Source: a virus. Taken from it: a DNA stretch of 40,882 bases. The stretch lies in the IMG/VR virus record IMGVR_UViG_3300017709_000005, positions 1 through 40,882 of that record; one strand, 5' to 3'. The position numbers and the translations under genes are program-made. Positions 2-32,477 of the stretch are shown in pieces. The notes under the pieces are model-generated. The model worked only from the letters and a program-made list of their open reading frames with translations. It made no database searches and had not been told where the DNA came from. The first letter of the stretch is position 1, and the number at the start of each line of letters is the position of its first letter.

Positions 2-1093
2 TGGAACTATGAAGGATTTATTGACGAATTTGGACAACCAGTATTTAATAACCCAGATCATGATGTATACGGACCCGACGGTGAATTAATTGAGTACGGA
101 ATAATTGATCACTGGAATAACGAAGCTGACGGATTAAAATCAGATCAAGATGGTTTAAATGAATTTTACCGACAGTTTCCAAGAACAGAAGAACACGCTT
201 TCAGAGATGAAGCTAAAAACAGTATATTTAATTTAGTTAAAATATACGAACAAATAGATTATAATGAAGGAATTAGAAATAGCTCTGTAGTTAACACAGG
301 TAATTTTCAATGGGAAAATGGTGTAAAAGATTCTAAAGTAGTTTTTTATCCTGACCCAAAAGGTAGGTTTAATATTAGTTGGACTCCACCGCATAACCTT
401 CAAAACAGAATAATAACTAAGAACGGAGTTAAATATCCTGGAAACGAGCACATGGGTGCTTTTGGATGTGATAGCTATGATATTAGTGGAACAGTAGATG
501 GTAAAGGATCTAAAGGGGCTTTGCACGGATTAACAAAGTTTTCTATGGAAGACGCGCCGCCTAACCATATGTTTCTAGAGTATATTGCAAGACCACAAAC
601 CGCTGAAATATTTTTTGAAGACGTATTGATGGCCTTAGTTTTTTATGGTATGCCAATACTAGCAGAAAACAATAAACCAAGATTACTTTATTATCTAAAG
701 CGAAGAGGCTATAGAGGGTTTAGTATGAATAGACCTGATAAAGTTTGGAATAAGCTTTCTGTGGCAGAAAAAGAAGTAGGTGGTATACCTAACTCTAGCG
801 AAGACATTAAGCAAGCTCATGCTGCTGCGATAGAAATGTATATACAAAGCCATGTTGGTCACTTGGGTGATGGTACTTATGGTAACGTATACTTTAACCA
901 AACGTTAAACGAATGGAGTAGGTTTGATATAAATAAACGTACGAAGTTTGATGCCGCTATAAGTTCTGGTTTAGCTATAATGGCTTGCAATAGACACTTA
1001 TATAGACCTCACGCTGAAATAAAAAAGCCAGCGTTAAATTTAAACATTGCAAAGTATACTAACAATGGTAATACATCTAAATTAATAAAATAA
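2..1093 (+). CDS. terL: Terminase large subunit, C-terminal part (cut by window edge)
   Basis: Packaging ATPase/nuclease that translocates and cuts phage DNA at the portal. The reading frame is open from base 2, so the window holds only the C-terminal part; the first ATG in this frame (452) is internal and not the start. The segment has a typical end-of-ATPase stretch (FYRQFPRTEEHAF), then an RNase H-like nuclease region. Candidate acidic metal ligands are the Asp residues in FGCDSYD, the Glu in PILAENN and the Asp in FDAAISSGLA near the end. The following portal gene starts 3 bases after the stop, the usual terminase-portal order. The nuclease assignment rests on motif spacing and context. 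The ATPase Walker motifs lie outside the window. Confidence 0.88.
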   Translation, partial: WNYEGFIDEFGQPVFNNPDHDVYGPDGELIEYGIIDHWNNEADGLKSDQDGLNEFYRQFPRTEEHAFRDEAKNSIFNLVKIYEQIDYNEGIRNSSVVNTGNFQWENGVKDSKVVFYPDPKGRFNISWTPPHNLQNRIITKNGVKYPGNEHMGAFGCDSYDISGTVDGKGSKGALHGLTKFSMEDAPPNHMFLEYIARPQTAEIFFEDVLMALVFYGMPILAENNKPRLLYYLKRRGYRGFSMNRPDKVWNKLSVAEKEVGGIPNSSEDIKQAHAAAIEMYIQSHVGHLGDGTYGNVYFNQTLNEWSRFDINKRTKFDAAISSGLAIMACNRHLYRPHAEIKKPALNLNIAKYTNNGNTSKLIK

Positions 1094-15400: not shown

Positions 15401-18400
15401 AAGATCTACTCTTTCAACTGGCTCAACGTCTACAACAGAGGTAACTTCAGGGTATCTTTTAGCAAACAGTAGTGGAGATAGATACATAGGATCTAACGAC
15501 TCTACTGAACCAGGATATGATAACGACGGCAATGGCGATACTGGCTCTTACACAAACTTACGTTCATACGGCAATGGCACTCAACAGGATTGGAATCTTA
15601 GAAGTATATTCTACGACTCAACAGATGCTACTAGTACGGCAACTGATAGTACCGACATAATATACACTCAAGAAGGAAACAACTCTGGTATTATATTTGG
15701 CAACTGTTACTTTGGCCACGAACCTGTTAATGGCGGTGGTTTAGCGGCAGATAGCAAAGAGATGTATATAGAAATTCCTGGATACTACGATGGAGATTAC
15801 GGTGATAGAGTTGCAAGTGATGTAAAGAACTGGGGCGCTGATCCAGACAATCATTTAGAAGAAAATTTTGGCACAATGTACAACAACTCAGCGTTTAATA
15901 ACGAAGAGTTTCATCTAAGTTATAGCATATCTAACTCACACGGCGGCGCAACTTATGATCATAAATGGTTTGTTGAAATATGGGCTGACGGTCAGCTTAT
16001 AGACAACTCGTATTTAGTTGACACTGACACTGAAACAAACACTTTAGCTACAGGAAGTTATAATCCAGGCTTTGTTACTAGTAATACTACTATAACTCCT
16101 TCCGCGACAGTCGCTGGCACGCAAGCTTCGCCTTCGAGTTACACAGCTCAACTGCAGTTTAAGATACAAGATCCTAACACGTCTGCGGACTCTAGTCATA
16201 AAGTGTTTAGTCAAATTAAAGTTAGAATTGGTGTTACAAACTCAGATCAAACAGCAAACTATCCTGCAGATCCAGTTTACGCTATATTGCACCTTGCTAA
16301 GCTTACTAAAACAAAGAGACTAACACATCCTAAAATAACGGATTATGCAGGTGAGCCAGAAGTTTTAGCTATTCCAATTTCAGACACACCAGCTTGGTCA
16401 GAAGTTATTCACGAGCTTCACTATGAAAATGTATGGAATATTACTGCTGGAAATGGAAATAGATTTTACAAAGCTGAACAAACTTTAGGTGTAGCAAATC
16501 CAGGTGAGTGGATAACTAGCACTGACAACAATGGAAACACAGTACAGTGGTATAATTTTGTTGAAGGTAACAATGTTACAGTAAGCCCAGGTTACGACAA
16601 TGCTATTGAGGGCGAAAACTCTTACACAGGTGCTGCGCCAGCAGAATATATAACTACCCCTAACGGTAGTGACTTACCGTTGTTTAATCAATACACTGAA
16701 GCTACTAGTTTAAGTAGTGATCCTAACGAAATACCAACAGACTGCAGAGGAATACTTATTCAAAATGATGGATCTAACGAAGGTAGCTTTTATTTCGCGC
16801 AACCTTTAAATAACGAGTCTAAGTACGTTGTTGGAAATTGGTATTGTGTTGATGTTTTTCTCGACTCTAGTTATCCTAATGTGGCTTTAAATAATCTTTT
16901 AATACCTAACGTACTAGGTGCAGGTAGCGGTTTAGACAACGCTTATGGAACAGACCACACTCAAGACATAGCTGGCTATCCATCGTATCACTTTGGTAAA
17001 GTTGGAGGATCAAGTACAGCTGGTTATAGCAAGTCTATAATTTTAATGCCTGTTACAAATAACGAATGGCCTTTAGGTAATGGAAACGAAGTCTATAGAG
17101 CTATATTCCAATACAATGCTACTGAATATGCTCAAGAAGCTCAAGGTCAAAACTTTGTGTTACAAGGCTGGAATGCCGACTGTTTGATTAGAACTATATC
17201 TTTATATGATATAACAGAGCAAGCCACCATGGGTAAGCCTAATGGTTGGAACGTTCCTCAAGACGCTTGGGTTAGTGAGCATTCTATGCATGAGTTTATA
17301 ACAGAGCAAACTAATGATAATCTTGAGCCTGAATGCTATTTTAGACATAACATGCTTTGTTGGAACACGGAAAGATCTAGTCACGTTTATTGGAATAATT
17401 ATCACTACAATGGCAACGGACCTTTAGATGAAACAGAAGAATCTTATAGTGGATACTTGCTTAACTTTACAATAGAAAACAATCCAGACTTTGAAACCTT
17501 TGAAGGCAAGTTAAGAATTAGAGTTACAAACAGATGGAATGAGCAAACAAATTCTTTAGATGGAGCTTACATTAGAGATATAGATACGCCCGGTGACTAC
17601 TCTATATTAATGAACTTTAACTCTATAGATCCAACTATAATTTCTGCGCCAGAAGGCTCTGAAGTAAGTGGTGTGTCGTTTGCTAATCAAAGTGATTATG
17701 CTCAGATTGAAAATCATAGAAGTAAAATAGTAGTATTCCCAGAAACCGGTGGCTGCACAGGCGCTTTAAGCAGTTTGTCGTTAGTTGACGCTACACAGTA
17801 CTACGAGGGTGGCGGTATAGATTCTTGGGTTATAACAGGTTATGATAGGTCAGCGGCAAACCACATTTCTTGGAATCAAGAAGACTTAAACATTGTGTTT
17901 AATAATGCTCCTGTTATAGATGACTTAACAGAACAACCGGTTCAAACAGAGCAAAGAGTTGGTCATATTGAATCTAACTCTAATGTAACTTTTGGCTTAA
18001 CGGCAAGTGAATTTACAGGAAGCATAAAAGCATATTACTACAATAGTTCTAACAAAGGGTTTAGTGTTGTTTACAATTCTGATGATAGCTATTCAAGCGT
18101 ATTTAATTTAGACGAAGTTAGACCTAGCGACGCTTTAATAAATACTTTAGTCATTAAAACTAATGAAGACAACACTAGCTGCGTTATAGACGACATATTT
18201 TTATTTAAAAGTGCTGACGCTGGCTTTGAGCCAACAACTATAAGTTACAGTGAAGAAGTTAAAGGCTGGACTAGTTTAAAATCTTTTCACCCAGAATCTG
18301 GTGTGAGTGTTGCTAGACAATATTACACAATGCTGAACGGTGAGCTATGGCACCACCACGCTAACGATGTTAGAAATAACTTTTATGGGCAACAGTATGA

Positions 18401-18788
18401 TAGTGATATAACTTTAATTATGAACGCTGATCCTTCTACAGTTAAAAACTTTAGAGCTGTTAGCTACGAAGGAACTCAAGCTAAGGTTCATGAGTCTAAG
18501 CAAGTATTTTTAGGTGTAAATGATTTAGGAGATAATTTGTACGCTAGCTCAGCAGATAATTATAATTTTTCTTCAAAACACGGTTGGTTTGCTGAAGATA
18601 TACACACTGATACTCAACATGGGTCTATAAAAGAGTTTATTAAAAAAGAAGGCAAGTGGTTTAATAACATAAAAGGAAAAAATACAGGCGACTCTGTGAC
18701 TATGGAAGAAGTAGGACAATTAAGCTTTCAGGGCTTGGGGTTTGCTGAATCTATAACGCTTACTGTTGATAGCGCGCCTGCAGAATAA
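9492..18788 (+). CDS. Giant nozzle-like tail protein, 3098 residues
   Basis: Likely tail tube/nozzle protein with very large extra domains. The N-terminus (FSQGKMNKDLDERLIPNG, then QYRDALNVE) matches the opening of beta-propeller nozzle proteins (T7 gp12, P22 gp10 and crAss-like stabilisation type). Further core-like blocks follow: SQRDYQLGVVFGDEYGRETPVF around residue 520, a FDGRFFVKIA block around 830, and a propeller-like stretch at about 1654-1800 (LIYSGIYN, GSIQKLFSRNSDLIAFCED, YFADKQRGAVLRLSMDGL). Between and after these blocks lie Asn/Ser/Thr/Gly/Trp-rich, beta-sheet-type regions that could be carbohydrate-binding modules. The last 250 residues form another distinct block (EVKGWTSLKSFHPESG, LWHHHANDVRNNFYG). 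Ordinary nozzle proteins are about 800 residues, so this one is roughly four times normal. The frame is intact throughout. Confidence 0.68.
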   Translation: MAEIKNTFSQGKMNKDLDERLIPNGQYRDALNVEITSDGESAETGSAGTISNIKGNIPLENVVPSDKCVCVGSVADEKNNKLYWFVKCEGFPQSGDTAFPNRDAIIEYDTVSKESTFLITDLRSKFTNSAGSTVKPILNFSGKKITSINIIDQYLIWSDGETEPKKINIEKAKEATIKQNNGTNGRGSLNHHSYLYVNGVNTVQYLQEENITVIKKKPLMAPRYSVVSAKNSEFDPKLNPTPLKKAIFEKIFPRFCLRYKYQDGEYSAFGPFTNVIFNPEFVGEYSVLNAFTAKEPYNKAMVNAIRTINFYGLVTPDMPKDVVQIDILYKQENSTVIHNVGSIKNTDPEWFEDGNWFKQQGLADYDSYNPTTKGVFIVDTENIHAALPENQFLRVWDAVPRKAQAQEVTGNRLVFANYTEGYDMVVDNSDFKPKVLGDFEPRQIDVDSIFRGEGAFGYSLNMSQNLTGRFENATSISSTRDRGNIYSYVAAPVADPSRPLAYAYTGYRGAGLPTIKSQRDYQLGVVFGDEYGRETPVFTSDLATVKIPWEGAYGLSASTSLSIAASLGNTPPSWAKYYKFYIKQSAGEYYNIAMDKVYRPATSSPEFDNDLNHVWVSFASSDRDKIDTGEYITIKKIINDYATQIQKENKYKVLDISNEMPDSIAFEYYNLGTRSNINSALTDENITDAIPIFTQDPTSNEENRIDRITNTIEISKTNWLAGSGAALTKEDIDGYTERDGGLYISWRRSTQSSRVFSKRYKVTSVTFQSNKYILKLAEFIQEQDAKLAANSSDLSTTSVGLGGTVTADTLTFQIERKEKKTKEAFDGRFFVKIAADYILEEYLLSEFKEEFTDFYVNGVQKLFYLADGITTGFDASSAIVNSENSAEIQSYQDDSDVTSPSDIHSGGSLTDLQSEWQALMDDDNFGVRTSPTSNSSAGNGGFFIDAMYFAAINSDSANSYAKYAGQGWTGNLSVEYPEIEWGRIIDYRTRDNDLPGSDWLTTLATSSYGRDYNVAARRARYGWRQAGVNENQETNADAWIESSSASNFGGGAYRSQWRNWNHGNFSTWQVLEGTSETVETDRESEVNGFEGILQQASPVHYSLPSDGGYRNFLTNIYGKIPNGRTTSKNVYKSNINGVTPSYLHLSYLGPGYSANLFNRNSVPSDVGLHGEKALGRYLGGIWGGGAFTNQNGTNFGSSNIRFVEMEGTNWEDRIAYSDNGNIQPAASSRDTTQEENMPSDITRSKPPRPGDDTKYFGYDSSKGTLHSKQWVPGGDAGTIEHVYNFATQDLQQGAQFRFKNDTSEDIYTVLEKSELHIYNHTPWKARKIWDGTEYVWGNDSVEEAVAAWADTADVNGQPVNNLDAEFGVMLNRLEAFGDRSNRRTTYVLALDKPVQTSSYNPVLGADTQGTQVLPDATAFTDIEFIRNNPMVLTGEVNKDPAIWETEPTSNNELDVYYEASNAIPTKLNKYNLDLFAPQGTRIEFPNMDNSIIKHDYAVYLRRWNGPMSSYNDEVIRLEVRGLNGGDTGFKWFSGDTNIDYKGQDVRFYRQDGSYTTATTANIDIEQFYIDTDNMTDGSGDYWKGKNTAAYIFIKNTIDPTKQVGLSWFNAFTFTDGVESNRIRDDFNEMTISNGARVSTTLDEPYKEEVKSNSLIYSGIYNSNSKLNSLNEFITAEKITKDLNPTYGSIQKLFSRNSDLIAFCEDRVVKILANKDAVFNADGNPQLIASNRVLGQATPFAGDFGISKNPESFAKDSYRAYFADKQRGAVLRLSMDGLTPISEAGMGDWFRDELTSTGISIIGTFDDHAREYNVTIKEVVDSNRIQNNTFDYGSEVSIVNIVNPELCTNPDLSGGAEYTPVDLVNDIYYAGPTADSSLGISLGFDVYSKVPIRNRSLGYKSTVRNWPAIAEGSIRSYVAAVPAVLAANAEYDVYNLQNSSMSGIDTVYKLFHHTFRNTNTNPFNNPTPNGSRSTLSTGSTSTTEVTSGYLLANSSGDRYIGSNDSTEPGYDNDGNGDTGSYTNLRSYGNGTQQDWNLRSIFYDSTDATSTATDSTDIIYTQEGNNSGIIFGNCYFGHEPVNGGGLAADSKEMYIEIPGYYDGDYGDRVASDVKNWGADPDNHLEENFGTMYNNSAFNNEEFHLSYSISNSHGGATYDHKWFVEIWADGQLIDNSYLVDTDTETNTLATGSYNPGFVTSNTTITPSATVAGTQASPSSYTAQLQFKIQDPNTSADSSHKVFSQIKVRIGVTNSDQTANYPADPVYAILHLAKLTKTKRLTHPKITDYAGEPEVLAIPISDTPAWSEVIHELHYENVWNITAGNGNRFYKAEQTLGVANPGEWITSTDNNGNTVQWYNFVEGNNVTVSPGYDNAIEGENSYTGAAPAEYITTPNGSDLPLFNQYTEATSLSSDPNEIPTDCRGILIQNDGSNEGSFYFAQPLNNESKYVVGNWYCVDVFLDSSYPNVALNNLLIPNVLGAGSGLDNAYGTDHTQDIAGYPSYHFGKVGGSSTAGYSKSIILMPVTNNEWPLGNGNEVYRAIFQYNATEYAQEAQGQNFVLQGWNADCLIRTISLYDITEQATMGKPNGWNVPQDAWVSEHSMHEFITEQTNDNLEPECYFRHNMLCWNTERSSHVYWNNYHYNGNGPLDETEESYSGYLLNFTIENNPDFETFEGKLRIRVTNRWNEQTNSLDGAYIRDIDTPGDYSILMNFNSIDPTIISAPEGSEVSGVSFANQSDYAQIENHRSKIVVFPETGGCTGALSSLSLVDATQYYEGGGIDSWVITGYDRSAANHISWNQEDLNIVFNNAPVIDDLTEQPVQTEQRVGHIESNSNVTFGLTASEFTGSIKAYYYNSSNKGFSVVYNSDDSYSSVFNLDEVRPSDALINTLVIKTNEDNTSCVIDDIFLFKSADAGFEPTTISYSEEVKGWTSLKSFHPESGVSVARQYYTMLNGELWHHHANDVRNNFYGQQYDSDITLIMNADPSTVKNFRAVSYEGTQAKVHESKQVFLGVNDLGDNLYASSADNYNFSSKHGWFAEDIHTDTQHGSIKEFIKKEGKWFNNIKGKNTGDSVTMEEVGQLSFQGLGFAESITLTVDSAPAE

Positions 18789-20426: not shown

Positions 20427-20846
20427 ATGAGTGAACAAGTTGCATTTAGAACCTTTAAAGAAGGTGACTACGAAATGTGTTGTGATTGGTGGAGATGGTG
20501 GTGGAAAGAAATACCGGTAAAAAGAAAAGTTTTACCAAACGATGAAAGATGTTTCGTAATAGAAAATAATAACATACCTGTAGCTGCGGTTTTTTTATAC
20601 GCGGCTGTAAATCCAGAGGTAGGTTATCAAACATGGTTAGTGTCTAATCCAGAGTACAAACAAAAAGATAGAAGAAAAATGCTAGAGTTGCTAGTAGCAA
20701 ACGTGGCAAAGGAAGCGAAAGAAACCTGGGGTATGTCAATGTTATTTACAGTATGTGTAAACAAACACATGGAAAACATTCACGAAAACCAAGGTTGGTT
20801 TATAGAACGATCAGCGCCTTGTTACGAGGCGTTCAAATACTTATAA
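20427..20846 (+). CDS. GNAT-like protein (T7 gp13-like position)
   Basis: 139 residues with an N-acetyltransferase-like pattern: an opening FRTFKEGDYEMCCDWWRWWW, a beta strand pair around residues 40-60 (CFVIENNNIPVAAVFLYA), a loop and helix KQKDRRKMLELLVANVAKEA at the place of the acetyl-CoA-binding loop, and a final strand/helix with GWFIERSAPCYEAF. The classic Q/R-x-x-G-x-G/A loop is not obvious (KQKDRRKM instead), so catalysis is uncertain. T7 gp13 is a protein of almost the same length with a GNAT-like fold, encoded directly before the internal virion genes 14-16; the neighbours here fit that order. The Trp-rich WWRWWW run is unusual. It could acetylate a virion or host protein, or act only as an assembly factor. 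Confidence 0.7.
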   Translation: MSEQVAFRTFKEGDYEMCCDWWRWWWKEIPVKRKVLPNDERCFVIENNNIPVAAVFLYAAVNPEVGYQTWLVSNPEYKQKDRRKMLELLVANVAKEAKETWGMSMLFTVCVNKHMENIHENQGWFIERSAPCYEAFKYL

Positions 20847-20847
20847 T

Positions 20848-21504
20848 ATGGGTAGAGCAGCACAAAGAAGAACAGAGCAGCAAATTACAGGCGCTACAGA
20901 AACTCAACTACAAGAGCAACGCGCATTTCAAGACAGACAAAGACAAGCTTTAGACGCTCAAAGAGCAAGTTATGAAAACTTTGAGTTTACAAATCCTTTT
21001 GCTGGTATGGAGAATACCATGGAGGATTTACAGGTTAATACAGTTGCGGCTGACTTTCAAGCAGAGCAAGGTAGACAGCAAAGAGCAAATTTATTAAGTG
21101 GGTTAAGAGGAGCGGCCGGAGGTTCTGGTATCGCTGGTTTAGCTCAAGCATTAGCTAATCAAGGAACCTTACAATCAAGAAAAATATCTGTAGACATAGC
21201 AAAACAACAGTCAATGAATGAAAAGCTTGCCGCTCAGCAAGGTATGCAGATACAACAACTAGAACAGCAAGGAGAAGCCGCCGTTCAGCAAGCGTTGGCC
21301 AGCAGAGAGTCTACGCTACTTGGCATGGAAATGGGTGAAATGGCTGGTGCTAGAGCTGGCGTACAAGCTGCTTACGGAAATCAAATGGCAGGGCTCGGCG
21401 CTATATCAGGCATGCAAAACGCTCGTATGGGTATGTATGGACAAATAATAGGTGGTGTTGCTCAAGGAGTTAGCACTGCTGTTACAGGAAACATTATAGG
21501 ATAA
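20848..21504 (+). CDS. Small internal virion protein (T7 gp14-like)
   Basis: 218 residues, 1 base after the GNAT-like gene. The N-terminal half is Gln/Arg/Ala-rich and helical, followed by a Gly/Ala-rich segment at about residues 82-115 (GLRGAAGGSGIAGLAQALAN), a second Gln-rich helix, and a small-residue, amphipathic or membrane-active C-terminus (MGQ-like run then GGVAQGVSTAVTGNIIG). Small, Gln- and Gly/Ala-rich proteins of about 200 residues at this place form the outer-membrane part of the DNA-ejection channel in T7 (gp14, 196 residues). The function is therefore inferred from order, size and composition; no strict sequence motif defines the family. Confidence 0.65.
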   Translation: MGRAAQRRTEQQITGATETQLQEQRAFQDRQRQALDAQRASYENFEFTNPFAGMENTMEDLQVNTVAADFQAEQGRQQRANLLSGLRGAAGGSGIAGLAQALANQGTLQSRKISVDIAKQQSMNEKLAAQQGMQIQQLEQQGEAAVQQALASRESTLLGMEMGEMAGARAGVQAAYGNQMAGLGAISGMQNARMGMYGQIIGGVAQGVSTAVTGNIIG

Positions 21505-21508
21505 AACG

Positions 21509-23422
21509 ATGGCAAAAGGAGGAATAAATTTAACACCAAGAGCAGACGCTACTTTAGTTAACCAAGCCGCTCGTATGGGTATGGCTGGAGTGCCAAAAGA
21601 TCTTAGCAAGACGTTCAAAGGAATGTCTGATAGTTATGCTTCAGCAATGAGCACTATAGGTGAGGTTGGCAACGCAATAGGTCAAACGTTAGGAAAACTA
21701 GCAGGTGAAGGTATTAAAATAGCTACTGAAAACTTAAAAAACAGGCAAGCTGGAACTTATGATGATTTTACAGACGGAGGGCTTGACGAAACAGCTAGAA
21801 CTCTTTTGGAAGATTTAAAAGAAAAAGGTAGATTTTTAAAAGACACAGACGGCGACGGTAAAAAAGAAATTACTGATAGATTTAAGTTTGGTAAAGAAGG
21901 CAAACAAGCTAGACAAGAGTTTAGAAAAGAGAAAAAACAAACCTTAGCGCTTTTAGAAGATATAAGAAATAAACAATATGGAAATTTAGAAGCCGCAAGT
22001 AGAGGTGAGATTATTGAAGGAGCTTCTTCTGCGACTCAATTAACCATGAATAATGCTATAGCCGCTGGCGCCGAAGGTCTTGGCACAAACACTTCTTTTC
22101 CAGGAGTAAAAGCGGTTTCTTACATTACTGAGGTTGATGGTAAAAAATCTATAGCATACAGGCTTCAAGATAAAGACGGAAATTTAATAAAAAGCATTAA
22201 CGAAGTAACTAATCAAATAGAATTAGCTGCCGGAGAAGACGATGCTTATTCTGTTGCTGCTAACAAGATAGACAAGTTAATAACTAAAAAAGATGCTTTA
22301 GTTGTAGAAAATTTTTCTAAAATAGGGGCAAACTCTTATAACAGTGGCTTAAAAAATCAAGAGTTTCAAGTTAATAAAACAAAATCTGACATATTAACTT
22401 CAGTTAAGACAGATGATGCTTTTTCTACAGCTGTCCATAGTAACGAGCTAGGATTAGATCAATCTTATGCTGACATGCTTTCTTCTTCTAATAGTATAAC
22501 AGAGGAAATGTATACGTCTCTTTTTGACTTAAACAAAGACGGAACTATAGATGCTAGCGAACAGGCTAAAGCCGATTCTAACGTTAGAAGACTTGGCTTT
22601 GACAACAAAGAAGAGTTTATGAGCGTTGATAATATGCTAGCCTTAAAAAAAGCGATGTTAGATCCTACTAACATAGCGGCTAGAAATATATTTGCTAATT
22701 GGGCTACAGGCGAAATGGCAGACCAACATATACTCGGAGGACAAGATTACACTAAAACTTTAAATGTAGAAACAGCTGCAGAAAAAAGACAAAGATTAAA
22801 AGACGAAAAAAGATCTAGCACAATTGACGCTTTAAAAATTGGACAAAAAATTATAGAATATGATAATACTAGAGTTTTGTTTAGTGAAAATGGAGTTGAT
22901 TATGCTCTTTTAACTAAAAATGAACTTAGCGACGTAGATAAAAATGGTCTTTCTGCTATTGACAATGCTCAGTTCTTTAATAGAGGAAACTTTATAGTTA
23001 GTTTAGGTGGCGAGGTTTTACCTGGAGAGTTTGATGATGATAATAGTGTCAATGAAAAGGAAGAAGAAGAGTTTAACGCTAAGCTTGGAGCTTTAGGAAA
23101 TAAAGTTAATGCAGATGGAAACGGTGAAATATACGTAAACCAAAAATTTGATGGCGGCTTCCGTAGTCAAGCGGGCTACGAAGGGTATTTATTTGAGTCT
23201 AATAGCGAAAAATTCATTGCAGGTACTTTAAACAGAGAGTATAAGTCTCTAGGCTTTAGATTTGAAATGAAAGGTGCAAACAGAATAACAGCGTTTGGTG
23301 AAGATAAAGATGGAAAAGAGATATTTGAAACTTTTAAAACAAATCAAGGCGACGCTCTAAATAAAAACGAAGAACTTAGATTAAAGCAGTGGATGCAAGA
23401 CAATAAGCCTGCTTTAAAATAA
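21509..23422 (+). CDS. Internal virion protein (T7 gp15-like) with EF-hand-like loops
   Basis: 637 residues, largely helical and charged, in the slot and size range of T7 gp15 (747 residues), which forms the periplasmic tube of the ejection apparatus. Residues 340-351 (DLNKDGTIDASE) match a canonical 12-residue EF-hand calcium loop at positions 1, 3, 5, 6, 9 and 12. Residues 112-123 (DTDGDGKKEITD) give a second loop with Asp at the last position, and a weaker Asp/Glu-rich candidate lies at 509-520. The N-terminus is Gly/Ala-rich. No signal peptide was seen. The next gene starts 13 bases downstream. The ejection role is inferred from context. Calcium binding is predicted from the loops alone. 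Confidence 0.6.
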   Translation: MAKGGINLTPRADATLVNQAARMGMAGVPKDLSKTFKGMSDSYASAMSTIGEVGNAIGQTLGKLAGEGIKIATENLKNRQAGTYDDFTDGGLDETARTLLEDLKEKGRFLKDTDGDGKKEITDRFKFGKEGKQARQEFRKEKKQTLALLEDIRNKQYGNLEAASRGEIIEGASSATQLTMNNAIAAGAEGLGTNTSFPGVKAVSYITEVDGKKSIAYRLQDKDGNLIKSINEVTNQIELAAGEDDAYSVAANKIDKLITKKDALVVENFSKIGANSYNSGLKNQEFQVNKTKSDILTSVKTDDAFSTAVHSNELGLDQSYADMLSSSNSITEEMYTSLFDLNKDGTIDASEQAKADSNVRRLGFDNKEEFMSVDNMLALKKAMLDPTNIAARNIFANWATGEMADQHILGGQDYTKTLNVETAAEKRQRLKDEKRSSTIDALKIGQKIIEYDNTRVLFSENGVDYALLTKNELSDVDKNGLSAIDNAQFFNRGNFIVSLGGEVLPGEFDDDNSVNEKEEEEFNAKLGALGNKVNADGNGEIYVNQKFDGGFRSQAGYEGYLFESNSEKFIAGTLNREYKSLGFRFEMKGANRITAFGEDKDGKEIFETFKTNQGDALNKNEELRLKQWMQDNKPALK

Positions 23423-23435
23423 AAATAAATATCAT

Positions 23436-26400
23436 ATGCCAGATTATATTTCCGCAAACGGTTTTTCATATAGCGAAGAAGAGATAAACGATACCGCCAA
23501 ACAAAAAGGTATTACCTTTGAAGAGGTCGTAGCTAAAAACGGTTTAACTCTACCCGATAATACTATGAATGTAGATCAGTCTAAAGCTGAACCTATTGAA
23601 AGTGAGTATAAGTCTATAGAAATGCCTAGCGTTGATCAGCTAAAAGAAGGTATATCTTGGCTTCAAGCAGAGGGTGATATGAAATCAAAACTTAACGCTT
23701 GGTATAAAAATTCTGAGTACGAGTTTGATGATGTTTCTTTTGGTAAAGACAAAATTAAGGTTTACGATAAAAGCACAGGTGAATACTCTGACGAGTTTGA
23801 TGTTCCTAACCTTTTTGAAGGTACTGTGTTTTCTGGTTTTCAAGAAATTACTAAATTTGAAGATCTTCACAACAACTTATCAACTTTTTTTAATCGTAAT
23901 AAGAAGAAAAACGAAAACCAACTTGCTTTTGACAAACAGTATAAAGATCAAAGAAAAAAAGCTGAAGGAAAAGTAGGTGATCTTTTGGAAGACACTAAAT
24001 TTATGACTGAGGTGCTAGGTGAAGAGTGGACTGTAGATTATATTACAGACGTTAAAGAAGGTGGTAAAAGTGGAGTTGGTAACGACCAAGACTATGAGTT
24101 AATACTTAAGGCTATAAAAGAAAAAGTAGGTAGTTTTGAAGGTGGTGCTTTAGGTTTGTTTGAAAGCTATGTTCCTGGAGAAGATTTGTCAAGAATAAGA
24201 GAAGAAGATCTTGAGTCTGTTGTAAGAGACGGTATAAGAAAAAAGTTTAAAAAAAATGAAGCTAAAGCTTACGAGAAGTTAAACACAGAATTTAACGAAG
24301 GCATAGACATTGAAAACATGAGCGCTAGTGATGTTGAAAAAGCACACACAAGCTACATGAAAAACGTTGTTTTAAACGATGAAGAACAACTTGTTGCTGA
24401 CTCTTACAATAGATTACAAAAGCTAGAACCCGGATCACAAGAATACCAAAAAGAAGAAAAAGTTTATAATAAATTATTAAAAGACTCTGAGTCGTTTTGG
24501 CAGTACGGTTCTAAGGCTCTTATAGATCCGATAACGAGACAGTCAATTGACCCTGAAGCTCCAGGAGCTAGTACGGCTGTTGAAGTAACAAAAGAAGATG
24601 CTGACTATGTAAAAGCAACTTATGGAGATAATGTTGACGCTGCTTTTTCTGCTAATGGAAGAAAAGCATTTGTGTTAAGCAGAAGAGGAGAACAAGTGTT
24701 TGACGTTACTATAAACGATCCTCAAGCGTTAAGTATATTCAAAAGCTTAAATTATGAGGTTAAAGGCGAAAACAAACTTGGGTATGAAATGGAGATAAAG
24801 CTAAAGGATTTAGCTCCTTATTACGATCAAACAGTTAAATCTGACGGTTTTACTTTTGGCAACTTGTTGTCTGGTAGAGCAGATATAGGATCTTCTATAG
24901 CGGGCGCTTTAGGTATTTCAGACAAAGCTACATTTGAATCTCCAATGGGTTATTTTGGCTTAACTGAAAAAACAGACTTGCAAAAGTTTGGCTTGTTAGA
25001 GCAAAGGTTTTTTGACCAAAATGAATATGCTGACGAAGATCAATCTAAAGCTTTTAAAAGACTAGTAAAAGATCACAGAGACGACTTATATAACAACGTA
25101 AAACAGGGTAAAGTTTTAGCTCAAATGAAGCTTATGAACCTTGACGTTTCTTCAACAAAATCTTTTTTACCAGAAAGAGGCGTTGAATTAGTAGTAGAAG
25201 GCGCTTTAGGTATAGAAGGAGCTGATAGTCCAATGTCTACGGACTTGTTTGACACTGGTAGAGGCAAGAGAGACGTTATGGAGACCATAATAAACACTAC
25301 AGATGTAAAAGCTACTAAGAATCAGTTAGAGCGCTTTAAAAGAAGTGGATTTTATAGAACATACGAAGGTGTTGCTGGATTTGTTCCTGCTATAGCTGAA
25401 TTTGCTTTGATAGACGTAGCGCTAAAGAAGACCGGTGCTATAACTGGTGCTACTAAGCTAATGAGCAAACTTAGCAAAGGTACAGCTGGACAGAAAATGA
25501 TGTATCATACCTACATGGGTATTCGCGAAGAGTTTAAGATGGCCCAAGCATTTGATGAGCATTATCATCTAGGTGGTGGTGCTGGCTTTTACGCTATTGG
25601 TGCGGGCTTACCTAGATTTACTACTGGATTTCAACAGCTTAACTCTTTAATGAAACTAAATAGAAGTGGTGTTGCTGGTGCTTTATCTACTCAAGGAGCA
25701 GCTCAATTAGAGGCTTTAATTAGAGATGTAAGAGGTAAAGAAACATATCAAACTTATTTAAAAGAAAACTATAGCGATTTAGACTTAAAGTTTAGCGATG
25801 CTATTATTGACTACTTTGTTTTTGCCGCTGTAGGCGCTAAAGGTTTTGCTAATAAAAACTTTAGGAACTATATTAACACTACAAGCAGGCTTGAAAGGTT
25901 AGAAAAAGAATTGGTAGACAAAATAAACGTATACAGTAGTACAATAGAAAATAGAAAAGCCACAGGTAATCGTACGTCTACTACTAGCACTGAAACAGGA
26001 AAAGAGTTAATGAGCGGCGAAGGTGTGCTAGAAAAGAAGCTTAAAAAAAGTCAAGAGCTACTTGAGGGCGTGCATAACACGTTAAACACTATATATAGAA
26101 CGGCTGATTTTCAAGATCCTGCTAAGGTTCAAAAAATACTTGAAAGACAAGGTAAAAACTTAAAAGCAATATATGGTAAAGATATAGCTTTTGAAGTTGT
26201 GTCTGAAAGAGTTGACAAAGATGGTAGAAAGTTATTTGAGTTTGATGATTCTGCAGCTGAGTTTAAAAGCGATAAAAAAACAATTATAGTTGATATTAAT
26301 AGGGTTACTGAAGGTAAAACACCTCATGAGGTTTTTCACTTTGTAATGGAAAAATCTTTTAGTTCAAATCCAGAAGTAGTTCAAAAATTTAAAAAATCTA

Positions 26401-29400
26401 TTGTAGATGCTTTTCCAGGTAAAGTGTTTGATGCTGAAATAAAAGATAAAGATGGCAAGACAACTGGTCAAAGAAGAAAAATGACTATAGAAGAGTTTAT
26501 TGAAAACGAACATGGTAAGTCAACTGAAAACTTAAAGGCTAACGAGTTTATGGCATATGTAGCCGAAGTATTATCTAATCCAAGATTTTACGCTCAGCAT
26601 AGTCAAAAAGGCACTTGGGGAAAAATAAAAAACAATATAAATAAGTTTACCAACGAAAGATACGGCTCAAACGTTTTTGAGCAAGGCACAAAACAAGACA
26701 TGATTGACTTCATGTATAACTTCTCAAGGTCTACTAAGGCTGGTACTTTAACTCTTAAGCAAATAGAAATGTTTAAGAAAATAAAAGAAGATGGTACTTT
26801 TGGCGAACCTATAGAAGCTGACAATAGAACAGAACAAAAGAAAAGAGAGCAAGCTAGTGAAGACTATACTATGCCTTCAGCAAGCGTTGAAATGTCAGCG
26901 GGTACGCAGAAAGTTTACGATGCTATGGTTAAGGGTAAGAAAGGTAGAGACTTAGACAGAGGCATAGAGCAATTAGTAATGCCTGACTTTGACAACAAGA
27001 CTTCTGTTGCTGGGAAAAATTTCGACAGTCTTATCTATGATGTTATTCAACAGCTATACCCTAGAATAGGAGGAAGTAAAACAAAAAGCTATGACTTAGC
27101 TGTTGATCTAGTGTACGATACTAAAAGACCTAATCCTGAAACTACTAAAAATAGAGGTTTACTAGGTATTATAAAAGAATACGAGGCTAGAAAAGAGTAT
27201 ATTACCACTCAGAGAAAACAAGAAGATGGTAGTACAAAAGATGTTAAAGAAATATACGATTCTGAAGGAAACAAAAGAATAACCGAAAAGAAAGTTCAAG
27301 AGTTAGAAAGAAAGTACAATGCTAAGTTTGGAACTAAAGAGTTTATAGATCAAGCTAACGCAGAAGGTTACAAAGGAAAGCAAAACCTAACTAAAAAAGT
27401 TGGTCAAACTTTGAAAGAACGTATACATGAAATAGTAGATAGATCTGGTCTTACTGAAAGCGAACTTCAAGGCATGGACTTTGGTAAAAGCTTAGATGAT
27501 ATATCTGAGGCGAAGCTAGCAGATTTAGGTGGCGGTGTTGTTGAGACTAAGATGCCTAAACAGAAAACTAAACAAGAAAAAATTGAAGAATATAAGCTAG
27601 AAAACAAATTAGATTTAAGAGAGCACAAGCTGTTTAAAGATAATGTAGAGCTAAAAGTAGAAACTCAAGTGGCTGCTTTAAAGTTTTTAACAGAATCTAG
27701 AATTGAAGATATAAGAAGAGAAACTTACAAAGACGCTTTTAAAAAATATCCTAAAGCATTTGCTGAGTTTAAAAAACAGTTTGGAGAAACTAAAGAAGAC
27801 ATAAAAGAAACTTTTGAAAAGCAAGGTAAAGATTTATTTAAAGGTATATTATTAGACAAAGATTATTTTACTGGTGAAAAAGTTAGTGGTATAAAGAAAA
27901 CTTTTGACACGTTATTTAAAGGCACTGGCGTTAGAATGGCTATGTCTGAGTTTGGCCCTTTAGCTAAAGCTGTAAGAACAGAAAAAGAGCTAGCTATTGG
28001 TCCTGAAAAATTTGAAAAAATAGATCCTAAAGGTGAAAATGTTTTATACAACAAGATATACGGAACAGGAAGATCTAGTCAACACAAGACAAGAGCTGAT
28101 AAAGCTATGCAGTTTTTGTTTGAGTCATATTTTAATCAAACAGTTAGGCTAGATAGACTTAACAATCCTGGTATAATTGAAATGCTAAAAAAGAAAAATC
28201 CTGGTATATACGAAGGACTTGGATTTGAAAGAGTGCTTAAACAAATTGCGACAAACTTAAAAGGTAGCGTTCCAGAGTCTATGGCTAGTAATTCTAGGAT
28301 AGAGTTAATATCTAATCAACTTGGCAGTAAAATTAAAAGAGGCGCTAGTGCTAGATCTGCAGTTCTTGAAATTATAGCTAAATATGAAGATTTAAAACCT
28401 TATAAGCAGGAAATACTAGACAAGATGGGCGTTGCTTTAGAAGGCATAAAAACTACAGGTGAAGCGCTTGTTAAAGTAGGTGAAGCTTCAAGAAAACTTG
28501 GCTTGCTAGAAGGAAAAGCTTTTGCACCTATCGTGTTTGGTGGTGGCTATAAAGGTAAAAAGGGTTTAGTAAGTGTACACGACTTAATAAGAAAGTTTGC
28601 TGAAGACAATAATATTCCTAAAGAATTATTAAACATTGACAAAAACTTTTCTGATAGAGTTGCTGACCCAGATTTTTCTAGAAAATACTCTGAAGAATTT
28701 TTACCAGACTTTTATAACACGTTTGATTCTAGGCTAATAAATGCTTTTAGCAAGATAATAAGACCTACAATGGGCGAAGGTCTTCTTAGATTTGGCTATA
28801 GACCAATAGTTGACTATATTAGCAAAGGAGTATTTAAAGGACAAAGACCTTTAATATTTAATACTGAAATGGGTAAGGGTATTATAGAAGGCTTAGATGG
28901 TATTATTGAAATAAATTCAAAAACTAAAAAGCCTTATACAGCTAAAGAGTTTACGAAAAAGTTTGGCATTGACCTTAAGTTTGTAAAGGTTAACGATAAC
29001 GTTAAGGTAAAAAACTTAATAGAAAAAACGTTACAGTCAGAAACTTTTTCAGACATATCTACGGATAAAGGAAAGAAAAAGATAGCTAAATACATAATGG
29101 AAAAGCTATCACCCGATGCAACCGTAAAAGGCTACAACAAAATGGTTGAGTCAAACGAAGGTATGTTAAAGTATACGGCTGGAAAAATATTTGACTACCT
29201 AAGCAACGCTAAAACAATTGAGCAGAAAGCAGAAGCTATAAACAATGTATCTTTTATGCTTCAATCTCAAACCAGTAGCGGTGGAGGTATTTTTAGAGGA
29301 TTAGCTACTCATACAGCTATAACATTAAAAAGCGTGCTGCCTACAGCGAAAAAGAAATATCACAGCGAACACGAGTTTCAATTAGCTAATTATACTGGAA

Positions 29401-32400
29401 ACGTTCTTATATCTGCTCTTAGAAACACTGGAAATAAATCTAAGTTTACTAGCGAAGTAGATGCTTTGACTAGAATATACAAGCAAAGTATAATAGAAAA
29501 GACTCTACAGGAAAGAATAGATAAAACAGGTAACACTACAAGCGTTTATTCTGAAAAAAATATTGACACTGATGTCACCGCTAAATACGAGTTCTTAAAA
29601 GAAAGGCAGATAATGGAGTCTACGCTAGACTTGAAAACTGGTAAAACCTTTGATCAGTTAGCTGACAACTTTATAGAAGGTGGAGCGGCTGCTAAAGCTT
29701 TAGAGTCTGCTTTAATTCAAAATCAAAAAGCGTCTAAAAGTCAAGGCATGCCTTCTAAGAACGTAACGCTAACGGAAATGGTTAGAAACTCTGTTATTAG
29801 AGACAAAGCTGTATTGTTAGGTAGAAAAAAGAATAAAAACCCTAGGGGTATGTCAACGTTTGACTTTGATGAAACGTTGGTTATTGGTGGAAAAAACTCT
29901 GTTACTGCTACAAAAGGAAAAGAGTCTATAAAAATAACATCTGAAGAGTTTCCGTTAAAAGGACCTGAGCTAGCAAAACAAGGATATAAGTTTGACTTTT
30001 CTGACTTTGTTAATGTTAAAGGAGGTAAAGAAGGTCCTTTAATGCAGAAGCTTAGAAATCAAATAGAAAAATACGGTACAGACAACGTGTTTGTATTAAC
30101 AGCTCGTATGCAAGAAGCTGCGCCCGCAATACATGCTTGGTTGAAATCAAAAGGCGTTGAGTTAAAGCTAGAGAATATAACTGGTTTAGGTAATAGCACT
30201 GGTGAGGCTAAAGCTATGTGGATGCTTGAAAAGTTTAGCGAAGGGTATAACGATATGTATTTTGTAGACGATGCTTTGCCAAATGTTAAGGCTGTTAAAA
30301 ACGTATTAGATCAGTTAGATATAAAATCTAATGTTCAACAAGCATTAGCTTCTAAAAACTTAGATTTAGAAATTAACAAAATAGTAGAGCAAGCTTTAGA
30401 TATAAAAGCAGAAAAAGTTTTTTCAAAAGCAGAAGGTAAAACTAGAGGAAAAGATATAAAAAGAAGAAGACTATTTATGCCGGACACAGCTTCTGATCTT
30501 GAACTTTTATTAGAGCCTTTGTTTGGTAAGGGTAAGCAAGGTATTGAAAATAAAAAATGGTTTACCGAAAACTTTACTAGCGTTTGGGAGAGAAACATAA
30601 ATGATTTTAATACAGCACGTCAAGCAATAACAAGCGACTACATGGCTTTACGTAAGCTTAATAAAGACGTCGTTAAAGCCCTGCCAAAAGCTGTTGAAGG
30701 AACTAACTTTACAGCGGATCAAGCTATAAGAGTCTACTTATGGAATAAATCTGGTTTTACAATACCAGACTTAACACCTACATCTCAAGCTAAGCTTGTC
30801 AAATTTGTTGTTGATAATCCAAAAATAAGATCTTATGCTGAAAGTGTTGCTAGACTTACTAGGCTAGAATCAGGTTTAAAAGAACCTTCTGCTGAATGGT
30901 GGGCGGAAACTCTAGCGACTGAAATACAAGACTTAGGAAAAGGTGTTGGTAGAACAAAATACATACAAGAGTTTATCGATACTAAAAACGAAATATTTTC
31001 TGAGAAAAACTTAAACAAAATGGAGTCTAAGCTAGGTACAAGATGGCGTGAGACTATTGAAGATATGTTTGAGCGAATGGAGACCGGTAGAACTAGAAGT
31101 ATGAATCTAGGTAAACAAGGAAACGCATTGATGAATTACTTTAATGGATCTGTTGGTACAATAATGAACTTTAATACTAGGTCTGCTGCTCTTCAGTTAA
31201 TATCTACTGTAAACTTTGTAAACCACTCTTTTAACAATCCAGTTGAAGCTGCTAAAGCTTTAGCTAACACTAAGCAGTACGCTAAAGACTTTATGTTTAT
31301 TATGAATTCTGATATGTTAAAGCAAAGAAGAGCTGGTCTTGAAATTAACGTAACAGAAGCTGAGCTTGCTGCTGCGGCTGCGCAAACCAAAAACCCAGCC
31401 AGAGCAATGCTAGCTAAAATACTTAAAGCTGGTTATATACCAACTAAAATTGCGGATAGTTTTGCTATATCTGCGGGTGGAGCTACGTATTATAGAAACG
31501 CTATAAAAATGTATGAAAAGAAAGGCTTGAGCACTAAAGAAGCAGAACGTAGAGCATTTATAGATTTTCAGGCTATAGCAGAAAGAACGCAGCAGTCATC
31601 AAGAGCTGACCTTTTATCTAAAGAACAAACTTCTTTTGCTGGTAAATTAATATTACCTTTTGCTAACACTGCTATGCAGATGAATAGAATAATGACCAAA
31701 GAAGCTTTAGACATATCTAAAAAAAGGTACAAAGGGTTTGTTGGAGAAAACTCGCTAACAAATAAGCTTAGTAAAATAGGCTATTACGGTTTTGTTCAAA
31801 CATCAATATTTGCCGCGCTTCAATCTGGAGCATTTGCTTTATTTTTAAACTCTGATGATGATAAATTAAAAACAAACGGGTATACAACCGCTGGAAACAC
31901 TGTTATAGACTCTTTTTTAAGAGGTATGGGTATTAACGGCGCAATACTAAATGGAGTTAGACTTTCTATTCAAGAGTTTATAAAGCAAGACGGTAAGAAA
32001 TACGGCGTAGACTACAGTGAAGTTGCAGAAAAGCTATTAAATATATCGCCTTCTATTGGATCTAAATTTAGCAAGCTTGACGCGGCTGGTAATACTTACA
32101 AAAAACATAAGAAAGTAATTAAAGATGAAGGCTTAACTCTCAACGGCCCTTTAATGGAGGCTTCTACTCAAGCTATTGAGGCTGTAACAAACATACCTGT
32201 AAACAGGTATTATAGAAAAGCAAACAACATAAATAATGCTCTTGATACAGAATATGAAAACTGGCAAAGAGGTTTAATGGCAGCTGGTTGGAGCAACTGG
32301 GGCTTAGGAGTAGGTGATGAGGTAATTATCAATAAAGGTAAAGAAAATGAGTACGTTAAATACTACACTAAGGAAGAGGCTAGAAGAAGAGATTATCTAA

Positions 32401-32477
32401 AGCTTTTAAACAAAATTAACGCTAAAAATAAAAATATAAACACAGCAGCACCAAGACGTGGTCCCGTGAGCTTTTAA
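23436..32477 (+). CDS. Giant ejected virion protein with metallopeptidase and HAD domains, 3013 residues
   Basis: Largest of three likely ejection proteins, in the T7 gp16 slot but more than twice gp16's 1318 residues. Visible parts: a charged N-terminus; a hydrophobic, possibly membrane-active stretch near residues 649-663; a zinc metallopeptidase-like HEVFH at 964-968 with a candidate third ligand in NEFMAYVAE (1036-1044); long Lys/Glu-rich helical linkers; a HAD hydrolase with FDFDET (Asp2143, Asp2145), VLTAR (Thr2222), EAKAM (Lys2259) and FVDDA (Asp2278/2279); then helical blocks like those in phage 'polyvalent' proteins, with a hydrophobic helix near 2781-2806. No lytic transglycosylase or RNA polymerase motif was found. 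It probably enters the cell with the DNA and acts on envelope or early host targets. Enzyme substrates are unknown. Confidence 0.75.
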   Translation: MPDYISANGFSYSEEEINDTAKQKGITFEEVVAKNGLTLPDNTMNVDQSKAEPIESEYKSIEMPSVDQLKEGISWLQAEGDMKSKLNAWYKNSEYEFDDVSFGKDKIKVYDKSTGEYSDEFDVPNLFEGTVFSGFQEITKFEDLHNNLSTFFNRNKKKNENQLAFDKQYKDQRKKAEGKVGDLLEDTKFMTEVLGEEWTVDYITDVKEGGKSGVGNDQDYELILKAIKEKVGSFEGGALGLFESYVPGEDLSRIREEDLESVVRDGIRKKFKKNEAKAYEKLNTEFNEGIDIENMSASDVEKAHTSYMKNVVLNDEEQLVADSYNRLQKLEPGSQEYQKEEKVYNKLLKDSESFWQYGSKALIDPITRQSIDPEAPGASTAVEVTKEDADYVKATYGDNVDAAFSANGRKAFVLSRRGEQVFDVTINDPQALSIFKSLNYEVKGENKLGYEMEIKLKDLAPYYDQTVKSDGFTFGNLLSGRADIGSSIAGALGISDKATFESPMGYFGLTEKTDLQKFGLLEQRFFDQNEYADEDQSKAFKRLVKDHRDDLYNNVKQGKVLAQMKLMNLDVSSTKSFLPERGVELVVEGALGIEGADSPMSTDLFDTGRGKRDVMETIINTTDVKATKNQLERFKRSGFYRTYEGVAGFVPAIAEFALIDVALKKTGAITGATKLMSKLSKGTAGQKMMYHTYMGIREEFKMAQAFDEHYHLGGGAGFYAIGAGLPRFTTGFQQLNSLMKLNRSGVAGALSTQGAAQLEALIRDVRGKETYQTYLKENYSDLDLKFSDAIIDYFVFAAVGAKGFANKNFRNYINTTSRLERLEKELVDKINVYSSTIENRKATGNRTSTTSTETGKELMSGEGVLEKKLKKSQELLEGVHNTLNTIYRTADFQDPAKVQKILERQGKNLKAIYGKDIAFEVVSERVDKDGRKLFEFDDSAAEFKSDKKTIIVDINRVTEGKTPHEVFHFVMEKSFSSNPEVVQKFKKSIVDAFPGKVFDAEIKDKDGKTTGQRRKMTIEEFIENEHGKSTENLKANEFMAYVAEVLSNPRFYAQHSQKGTWGKIKNNINKFTNERYGSNVFEQGTKQDMIDFMYNFSRSTKAGTLTLKQIEMFKKIKEDGTFGEPIEADNRTEQKKREQASEDYTMPSASVEMSAGTQKVYDAMVKGKKGRDLDRGIEQLVMPDFDNKTSVAGKNFDSLIYDVIQQLYPRIGGSKTKSYDLAVDLVYDTKRPNPETTKNRGLLGIIKEYEARKEYITTQRKQEDGSTKDVKEIYDSEGNKRITEKKVQELERKYNAKFGTKEFIDQANAEGYKGKQNLTKKVGQTLKERIHEIVDRSGLTESELQGMDFGKSLDDISEAKLADLGGGVVETKMPKQKTKQEKIEEYKLENKLDLREHKLFKDNVELKVETQVAALKFLTESRIEDIRRETYKDAFKKYPKAFAEFKKQFGETKEDIKETFEKQGKDLFKGILLDKDYFTGEKVSGIKKTFDTLFKGTGVRMAMSEFGPLAKAVRTEKELAIGPEKFEKIDPKGENVLYNKIYGTGRSSQHKTRADKAMQFLFESYFNQTVRLDRLNNPGIIEMLKKKNPGIYEGLGFERVLKQIATNLKGSVPESMASNSRIELISNQLGSKIKRGASARSAVLEIIAKYEDLKPYKQEILDKMGVALEGIKTTGEALVKVGEASRKLGLLEGKAFAPIVFGGGYKGKKGLVSVHDLIRKFAEDNNIPKELLNIDKNFSDRVADPDFSRKYSEEFLPDFYNTFDSRLINAFSKIIRPTMGEGLLRFGYRPIVDYISKGVFKGQRPLIFNTEMGKGIIEGLDGIIEINSKTKKPYTAKEFTKKFGIDLKFVKVNDNVKVKNLIEKTLQSETFSDISTDKGKKKIAKYIMEKLSPDATVKGYNKMVESNEGMLKYTAGKIFDYLSNAKTIEQKAEAINNVSFMLQSQTSSGGGIFRGLATHTAITLKSVLPTAKKKYHSEHEFQLANYTGNVLISALRNTGNKSKFTSEVDALTRIYKQSIIEKTLQERIDKTGNTTSVYSEKNIDTDVTAKYEFLKERQIMESTLDLKTGKTFDQLADNFIEGGAAAKALESALIQNQKASKSQGMPSKNVTLTEMVRNSVIRDKAVLLGRKKNKNPRGMSTFDFDETLVIGGKNSVTATKGKESIKITSEEFPLKGPELAKQGYKFDFSDFVNVKGGKEGPLMQKLRNQIEKYGTDNVFVLTARMQEAAPAIHAWLKSKGVELKLENITGLGNSTGEAKAMWMLEKFSEGYNDMYFVDDALPNVKAVKNVLDQLDIKSNVQQALASKNLDLEINKIVEQALDIKAEKVFSKAEGKTRGKDIKRRRLFMPDTASDLELLLEPLFGKGKQGIENKKWFTENFTSVWERNINDFNTARQAITSDYMALRKLNKDVVKALPKAVEGTNFTADQAIRVYLWNKSGFTIPDLTPTSQAKLVKFVVDNPKIRSYAESVARLTRLESGLKEPSAEWWAETLATEIQDLGKGVGRTKYIQEFIDTKNEIFSEKNLNKMESKLGTRWRETIEDMFERMETGRTRSMNLGKQGNALMNYFNGSVGTIMNFNTRSAALQLISTVNFVNHSFNNPVEAAKALANTKQYAKDFMFIMNSDMLKQRRAGLEINVTEAELAAAAAQTKNPARAMLAKILKAGYIPTKIADSFAISAGGATYYRNAIKMYEKKGLSTKEAERRAFIDFQAIAERTQQSSRADLLSKEQTSFAGKLILPFANTAMQMNRIMTKEALDISKKRYKGFVGENSLTNKLSKIGYYGFVQTSIFAALQSGAFALFLNSDDDKLKTNGYTTAGNTVIDSFLRGMGINGAILNGVRLSIQEFIKQDGKKYGVDYSEVAEKLLNISPSIGSKFSKLDAAGNTYKKHKKVIKDEGLTLNGPLMEASTQAIEAVTNIPVNRYYRKANNINNALDTEYENWQRGLMAAGWSNWGLGVGDEVIINKGKENEYVKYYTKEEARRRDYLKLLNKINAKNKNINTAAPRRGPVSF

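Follow-up and report, generated by a model that had tools for sequence, protein, structure and literature searches.

Phage T7 gp16 (1318 aa) combines an N-terminal transglycosylase with two putative membrane-crossing regions, between which a cytoplasmic part is located (PMC8954989). In phage N4, the virion RNA polymerase gp50 (3500 aa) is a giant protein ejected as the third of its set. It contains a zincin domain with HExxH, and its large C-terminal part, which is helical, regulates the polymerase (PMC12633501). The term polyvalent proteins has been given to very large phage proteins that comprise several domains and whose entry into the cell with the DNA is predicted; one of their hub domains is a zincin-type metallopeptidase (MPTase), the core of which consists of strands, an HExxH helix and a helix carrying a Glu, and for which an HExxxH variant has been reported (Iyer et al. 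2017, PMC5512222).

The protein investigated here is encoded in a 40,882-base virus record, which was analysed at its full length and is referred to as the window. It shares with T7 gp16 the slot after a gp14-like and a gp15-like gene, the rank of largest predicted internal protein and a conserved hydrophobic segment near the C-terminus; an N-terminal peptidoglycan hydrolase, as in gp16, is found in some of its homologues (L051, L104). It differs from gp16 in its size (3013 aa, 2.3 times that of gp16, in line with the approximately twofold excess given in an earlier note on this DNA), in the lack of a transglycosylase and in the additional zincin-like and haloacid dehalogenase (HAD) domains. 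Direct kinship to T7 gp16 was rejected, as neither sequence similarity nor a Pfam or PHROG gp16 match was found. Among giant ejected proteins studied in detail, N4 gp50 comes closest by analogy, having both an HExxH domain and a helical C-terminus. Unlike gp50, the giant of the window has no RNA polymerase domain that could be found, but a HAD domain instead. The comparison to crAss001 is based on the muzzle-type tail (crAss_MUZ_C) encoded in the window and on large capsid cargo that partially unfolds on ejection (PMC10172136); the large cargo proteins of crAss001 are, in contrast to the giant, RNA polymerase-associated.

Results

Gene order around the giant

The following genes of the virion cassette were assigned in the window:

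2..1093, plus strand: large subunit of the terminase, truncated at its 5' end by the window border (phrog_6681, E 6.5e-79)
1096..3513, plus strand: portal protein (phrog_6547, E 1.8e-154; 43–53% identity to flavophage portals)
4729..6228, plus strand: virion structural protein in the capsid slot (phrog_13704, E 8.8e-101)
9492..18788, plus strand: muzzle-type tail protein, 3098 aa (crAss_MUZ_C, E 2.7e-8, over the Pfam cut-off; phrog_14478, E 5e-124)
20427..20846, plus strand: GNAT-like gene (equivalent position in L105, L107, L108 and relatives)
20848..21504, plus strand: gp14-like gene, 218 aa (homologues 1.2–2.3 kb before the giant in relatives)
21509..23422, plus strand: gp15-like gene, 637 aa, directly upstream of the giant (homologues adjoin the giant in relatives)
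23436..32477, plus strand: giant ejection-slot protein, 3013 aa (open reading frame and translation; homologous giants)

The identity range of the portal refers to the proteins of the elemo phages, Maribacter phage Panino and MW202828. The start of the muzzle protein resembles structural proteins of phi38:1 and the elemo phages, and its C-terminal end corresponds to the crassvirus muzzle domain. Judged by coordinates, it is about twice as large as its flavophage counterparts in L105 (1551 aa) and L107 (1470 aa). The gene order in phi38:1, elemoA and MW202828 is terminase, portal, capsid, small structural genes, muzzle, gp14-like, gp15-like and giant, usually with the GNAT-like gene ahead of the gp14-like one. 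Panino harbors the cassette with extra genes, while in Gundel the order is partly rearranged, with terminase and portal located after the giant. The last cassette gene is labelled "structural protein" in phi38:1, elemoA and Gundel, the labels being database annotation. The earlier note had described the giant as the last gene of a T7-like internal virion series. Its place as third gene after the gp14-like and gp15-like genes was confirmed, but the T7-like lineage is wrong, since the cassette is that of flavophages (phi38:1, elemo, Gundel). Only the gene order at the end of the cassette resembles T7 14-15-16. No virion proteomics covering the giant family or the slot gene was found in the literature, and the phi38:1 paper does not mention gp101.

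Gundel_1 gp074, elemoA gp21 and Cellulophaga phi38:1 gp101 occupy the identical slot of the flavophage cassette. The proteins of Gundel (a Tenacibaculum phage; HExxH at residue 1337) and Flavobacterium phage elemoA contain one HExxH each, as does the giant, whereas those of phi38:1 and Panino have none. In contrast to the giant, the slot proteins of phi38:1, elemoA, Panino and Gundel are all devoid of a HAD domain, and a HAD common to the slot proteins of all cultured flavophages was rejected, as it is present in none of those compared. Apart from Gundel gp074, none of the compared slot proteins was significantly matched with hhalign. The slot protein of MW202828 (L105:29334-40913, 3859 aa, annotated as "reticulocyte binding/rhoptry protein") contains two HExxH motifs (1615 and 2500) and no HAD. 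A separate 117-aa "HAD family hydrolase" is encoded in elemoA (L107:36-389); it did not match the HAD profile of the giant significantly.

Several genes are located downstream of the giant. The gene product of 33123-34949 (608 aa) has repeated Cys-containing GC.D..A.NYN motifs and a C-terminal Por_Secre_tail (E 9.9e-8). This type IX secretion sorting domain suggests a host belonging to the Bacteroidota and export via the secretion system of the host. A small PAP2-superfamily phosphatase (36686-37228, E 1.9e-7) and a DUF5675 protein (38196-38663, E 3.3e-27) are also encoded.

Anatomy of the giant and its family

The gene starts with ATG and is uninterrupted to the stop codon. The coordinates and motifs reported earlier were recovered by translation and regular expressions, with a single HEVFH at aa 964–968 and a full HAD set at aa 2143–2279; likewise, no transglycosylase was recognised in Pfam and PHROG searches at E < 1e-3, as had been stated. 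At this threshold the whole protein was not assigned to any Pfam or PHROG family, only insignificant matches being obtained, and none of the LPD or MPTase models of Pfam matched it. No meaningful match was found by tblastn against 50,697 phage records with the pre-zincin/zincin, HAD, and HAD plus C-terminal parts as queries. The following parts were distinguished:

25362..25418, plus strand: hydrophobic segment ahead of the zincin, aa 643–661 (hydropathy)
26037..26777, plus strand: zincin-like metallopeptidase domain, aa 868–1114 (profile, alignment, AlphaFold secondary structure)
26325..26339, plus strand: HEVFH motif, aa 964–968 (sequence, alignments)
26544..26546, plus strand: E1037, putative third ligand of the zinc (unchanged in all 31 aligned sequences)
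29832..30344, plus strand: HAD phosphatase-type domain, aa 2133–2303 (alignment, model residues 11–179, VIA-align)
29862..29876, plus strand: HAD motif I, DFDET, aa 2143–2147, with predicted nucleophile D2143 and acid/base D2145 (alignment, regular expression)
30096..30107, plus strand: HAD motif II, LTAR, aa 2221–2224 (alignment, regular expression)
30210..30212, plus strand: HAD motif III, K2259 (alignment, regular expression)
30267..30272, plus strand: HAD motif IV, D2278-D2279 (alignment, regular expression)
30423..32321, plus strand: conserved helical C-terminal module, aa 2330–2962 (segment profiles, BFVD, hhalign)
31788..31844, plus strand: hydrophobic segment at a fixed offset past the HAD, aa 2785–2803 (hydropathy)

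A first scan of IMG/VR with the whole protein yielded 24 loci with homologous giant open reading frames. With the HAD alignment, at least 228 contigs encoding HAD relatives were found in a second scan, of which the best 80 were retained; deduplication left 91 different giants or fragments for analysis. Among contigs of bacterial genomes, a HAD relative was found at four loci only, all of them in metagenome bins and three in Bacteroidota. Segment profiles showed that the N-terminus and middle of the window giant are variable parts among the giants, while HAD and C-terminal module (approximately 840 aa) form one unit in nearly all giants extending that far. Since long MAFFT alignments misplace the zincin of L007 and L008, motifs were located by regular expressions on the raw sequences. 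The sequence preceding the HAD is 1100 aa or longer in 88 giants, and 83 of these have an HExxH located 785 to 1260 aa before the HAD (mean 1061, SD 118); the remaining five have HExxH at 1303 and 1381 aa (two), HExxxH (two) or are truncated (one). Exactly one HExxH was found in 85 of the 88, compared to 1.7% per shuffled protein, and composition shuffles of the window giant contain the motif in 1% of cases. By these motif counts, the co-occurrence of zincin and HAD motifs in the giant is beyond chance. As judged from sequence comparison, the homologous giants are a large, previously unannotated family encoded where phages keep injected proteins, with a probable zinc peptidase and a phosphatase-type domain in each member.

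Zincin-like domain

The zincin profile matched 15 of the first 25 giants, and most others have HExxH at a comparable position. In an alignment of 31 zincin regions (16–57% identical to that of the window giant), only H964, E965, H968, E1037, E698 and one Gly are invariant, E698 and the Gly being positioned farther upstream of HEVFH. HExxH is also invariant in additional alignments of giants, one of which (A10) keeps the downstream Glu as well. L009 and L017 have HEVLGH, an HExxxH variant as in polyvalent proteins.

The AlphaFold model of this region has a mean pLDDT of 63.5, with about 70–87 around the site. Its elements follow the order strand-strand-strand-helix: the strands precede the HEVFH helix, and E1037 is located in a later helix (model residues 401–414 and 475–486 for the helices). 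The earlier note had considered that HEVFH might lie in a helix without a second zinc-binding site; instead, strands ahead of the motif and an invariant candidate third-ligand Glu in the following helix were found, as indicated by conservation in the 31 sequences and by predicted secondary structure. The predicted element order and the HExxH/Glu pattern fit the published MPTase core (PMC5512222). When the model, which is of middling confidence, was compared to the PDB with Foldseek and VIA, only helical proteins were obtained, so that the zincin fold was not confirmed by structure comparison; the lack of zincins among these matches was not counted against it. A PDB profile search with the zincin alignment returned nothing relevant.

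HAD domain and a nested kinase

All four HAD motifs (DxDxT, TAR, K and DD) are kept in 91 of 91 giants, one of which falls outside the strict regular expression solely through an exchange of W for Y. Conservation along the protein peaks in the HAD, where the mean column value is 0.77 compared to 0.57–0.62 in the rest of the C-terminal unit and 0.24–0.43 in windows of the zincin region. In the AlphaFold model of HAD and C-terminus (mean pLDDT 77.0), aa 2133–2303 are predicted to adopt a Rossmann-like HAD fold. Nearly all of the top 50 VIA-align matches in the PDB belong to the HAD superfamily and cover residues 2133–2301. The LNS2 domain of Nir2 ranked first (Z 9.6, 3.0 Å over 116 residues), and further chains of Nir2 as well as PH1952, which is likewise a HAD protein, were within Z 1 of it. 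Two Legionella effectors, Lem4 (Z 7.6) and Ceg4 (Z 6.7), followed at lower ranks, as did acid phosphatases of class C and phosphatases of the NagD type. These neighbours of the model do not reveal the substrate of the HAD. A PDB profile search with the HAD alignment returned nothing relevant and no Pnkp.

In seven giants (L008, L010, L014, L020 and L022-L024), HAD motifs I and II are separated by an insert of approximately 200 residues, which contains a P-loop (GG.GSGK); the HAD residues are intact in all seven. The insert is assigned by Pfam to Zeta_toxin (best E 1.4e-11) or AAA_33 (1.2e-10), and in the HAD tree its carriers form a single group with 100/100 support. The window giant does not contain the insert. 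Searched against PDB profiles, the nested segment gave no match at E 0.01 and no Pnkp. In Pnkp, a kinase and a HAD phosphatase are combined in one protein, while Zeta toxin phosphorylates UDP-sugars. Four giants (L013, L014, L020 and L024) have about 430–490 extra residues between HAD and the next module.

C-terminal module and hydrophobic segments

Comparison of the model of HAD and C-terminus with BFVD yielded three uncultured-virus proteins and one of Virus NIOZ-UU157 at E 1e-75 to 1e-43. Many large phage proteins followed at E 1e-11 to 1e-3, including those annotated as ART-PolyVal, LPD38 or large polyvalent protein and a structural protein of Gundel_1. The LPD38-annotated protein is a fold-level match (E 4.8e-4); PF18857 (LPD38) itself did not match the window giant, the controls being equally silent. 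The C-terminal module of Gundel gp074 is homologous (hhalign probability 93.6, E 2e-7 for the single comparison). Among the homologues, the L084 and L102 giants carry LPD14 over the Pfam cut-off. An N-terminal glucosaminidase was found in L051 (aa 51–216, E 1.2e-12) and an N-terminal SLT domain in L104 (aa 23–73, E 4.3e-7), both likewise over the cut-off. Several disparate domains are thus present per polypeptide, zincin-like and HAD in the window giant and SLT, glucosaminidase, LPD14 or kinase in homologues. In some giants, among them L008 and members of alignment A9, the C-terminus has Cys/His motifs (C-x-A...G-x-RC...C..H) corresponding to DUF5763 in Pfam, which was counted in five members of A9 and A10 and one of A1; these motifs are missing in the window giant.

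A hydrophobic segment 525 ± 23 aa after the HAD was detected in 65 of 73 giants, but in only 21 of 91 shuffled proteins. Such segments are rare between HExxH and HAD (14 of 73 giants compared to 83 of 91 shuffled proteins), while a segment before the zincin (51 of 73) did not clearly exceed the frequency in shuffled proteins (48 of 91). This pattern fits, but does not prove, a topology as in gp16, in which the same side of the membrane would harbor both zincin and HAD.

Discussion

On comparative grounds, the giant is rather likely to be an ejection protein of the gp16/N4 gp50 type with polyvalent architecture, for which delivery would be expected by analogy. This reading is derived from the gene position, the gp14-like and gp15-like neighbours and the kinship to polyvalent-type domains; it is from the gene position only that we infer entry together with the DNA. 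The proposal of the earlier note, a multi-enzyme protein in the gp16 slot resembling polyvalent ejected proteins, gained strong comparative support from position, neighbours, the C-terminal module and the homologues with SLT, glucosaminidase or LPD14 domains, with the exception of the T7-like lineage attached to it. Besides the size, the presence of a probable zincin hub domain including HExxxH variants and the LPD14 of two homologues, the giant has in common with polyvalent proteins a C-terminal structure shared by LPD38- and ART-PolyVal-annotated proteins. It differs from them in that HAD is the invariant domain of the giants and in that the window giant matches no LPD model. The main text of PMC5512222 contains no mention of HAD, phosphatase or zeta toxin, and no paper was found in a literature text search combining polyvalent protein, haloacid dehalogenase and phage. 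The class to which the giant belongs is known; what appears to be new is a HAD that is always part of the ejected protein, and the kinase nested therein.

In this short-tailed marine flavobacterial phage, the giant would be the largest of a set of three ejected proteins (gp14-like, gp15-like and giant). As with T7 gp16, N4 gp50 and the cargo of crAss001, it is probably packed in the capsid and enters the cell before the DNA; its passage through the muzzle tail would involve partial unfolding, as in crAss001 (PMC10172136). The zincin (HEVFH plus E1037) would most likely cut the giant itself during or after entry, or alternatively a host protein. HAD, with its catalytic residues intact, would most likely act on a phosphorylated substrate (phosphate esters) in the host cytoplasm, and the helical C-terminal module and the hydrophobic segment probably anchor the giant at the inner membrane. 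The virus may in this way deliver two enzymes in one molecule.

Other roles of the two domains have to be weighed. They might be effectors against host proteins, e.g. a protease and a protein phosphatase acting on signalling or defence, instead of serving self-processing or repair. Zincins also serve as effectors in conflict systems (PMC5512222), and Lem4 and Ceg4 are among the structural neighbours of the HAD; these two, however, rank below or level with many metabolic HAD phosphatases, and a HAD as strongly conserved as this one suggests that its target is constant and does not evolve fast. This possibility is regarded as rather doubtful. Healing of nucleic acid ends, regarded as unlikely, would make the HAD a 3'-phosphatase that, together with the nested kinase, repairs tRNA or DNA ends nicked by host defence at entry in a Pnkp-like manner. 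The kinase related to Zeta_toxin/AAA_33 inside an intact HAD in one well-supported group, the Pnkp arrangement of both activities and the top conservation of the HAD are in favour of such a role, but neither domain gave a profile match to solved Pnkp, the best Pfam name of the kinase is that of the UDP-sugar-phosphorylating Zeta toxin, by structure the HAD is nearest to LNS2, NagD, class C acid phosphatases and HAD effectors of Legionella, and the window giant lacks the kinase. Both the effector and the end-healing reading are refinements of the ejection class which differ in the targets of the enzymes, and the confidence placed in them therefore overlaps with that in the ejection protein.

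It is improbable that the two domains are mere structural remnants, i.e. folds without catalysis during infection that persist because they help in packing, in ordered unfolding or in the assembly of a channel. The N4 virion RNA polymerase has an HExxH domain and is nevertheless packaged unprocessed (PMC5512222), and the regulatory role of its C-terminal part (PMC12633501) points in the same direction. Both domains of the giants, however, keep their catalytic residues while other positions of the zincin drift to less than 20% identity, and a purely structural role leaves unexplained why ligands and general base are the sole invariant ones.

A more far-reaching proposal, speculative and unlikely to hold in full, is that flavobacterial phages of an oceanic family inject, together with their DNA, an enzyme for end-healing or phosphate clearing. 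This would be the HAD phosphatase, present in every member and in one clade carrying a nested zeta/PNK-type kinase, and it would be freed from the giant by the built-in zincin. If true, and as far as the literature searched goes, a kinase-phosphatase delivered with the virion would be described for the first time, as would a HAD that is constantly present in an ejection protein. The unannotated giant gene, with relatives on at least 228 IMG/VR contigs, becomes a testable object with a candidate zinc site (H964, E965, H968 and E1037), named HAD residues (D2143, D2145, T2222, K2259, D2278 and D2279) and a conserved domain order, and related slot proteins are supplied by the cultured flavophages Gundel, elemo and phi38:1. 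If delivery is confirmed, HAD phosphatases and the nested kinase would join the activities brought into the cell before viral gene expression, which would have a bearing on how phages survive early host defence.
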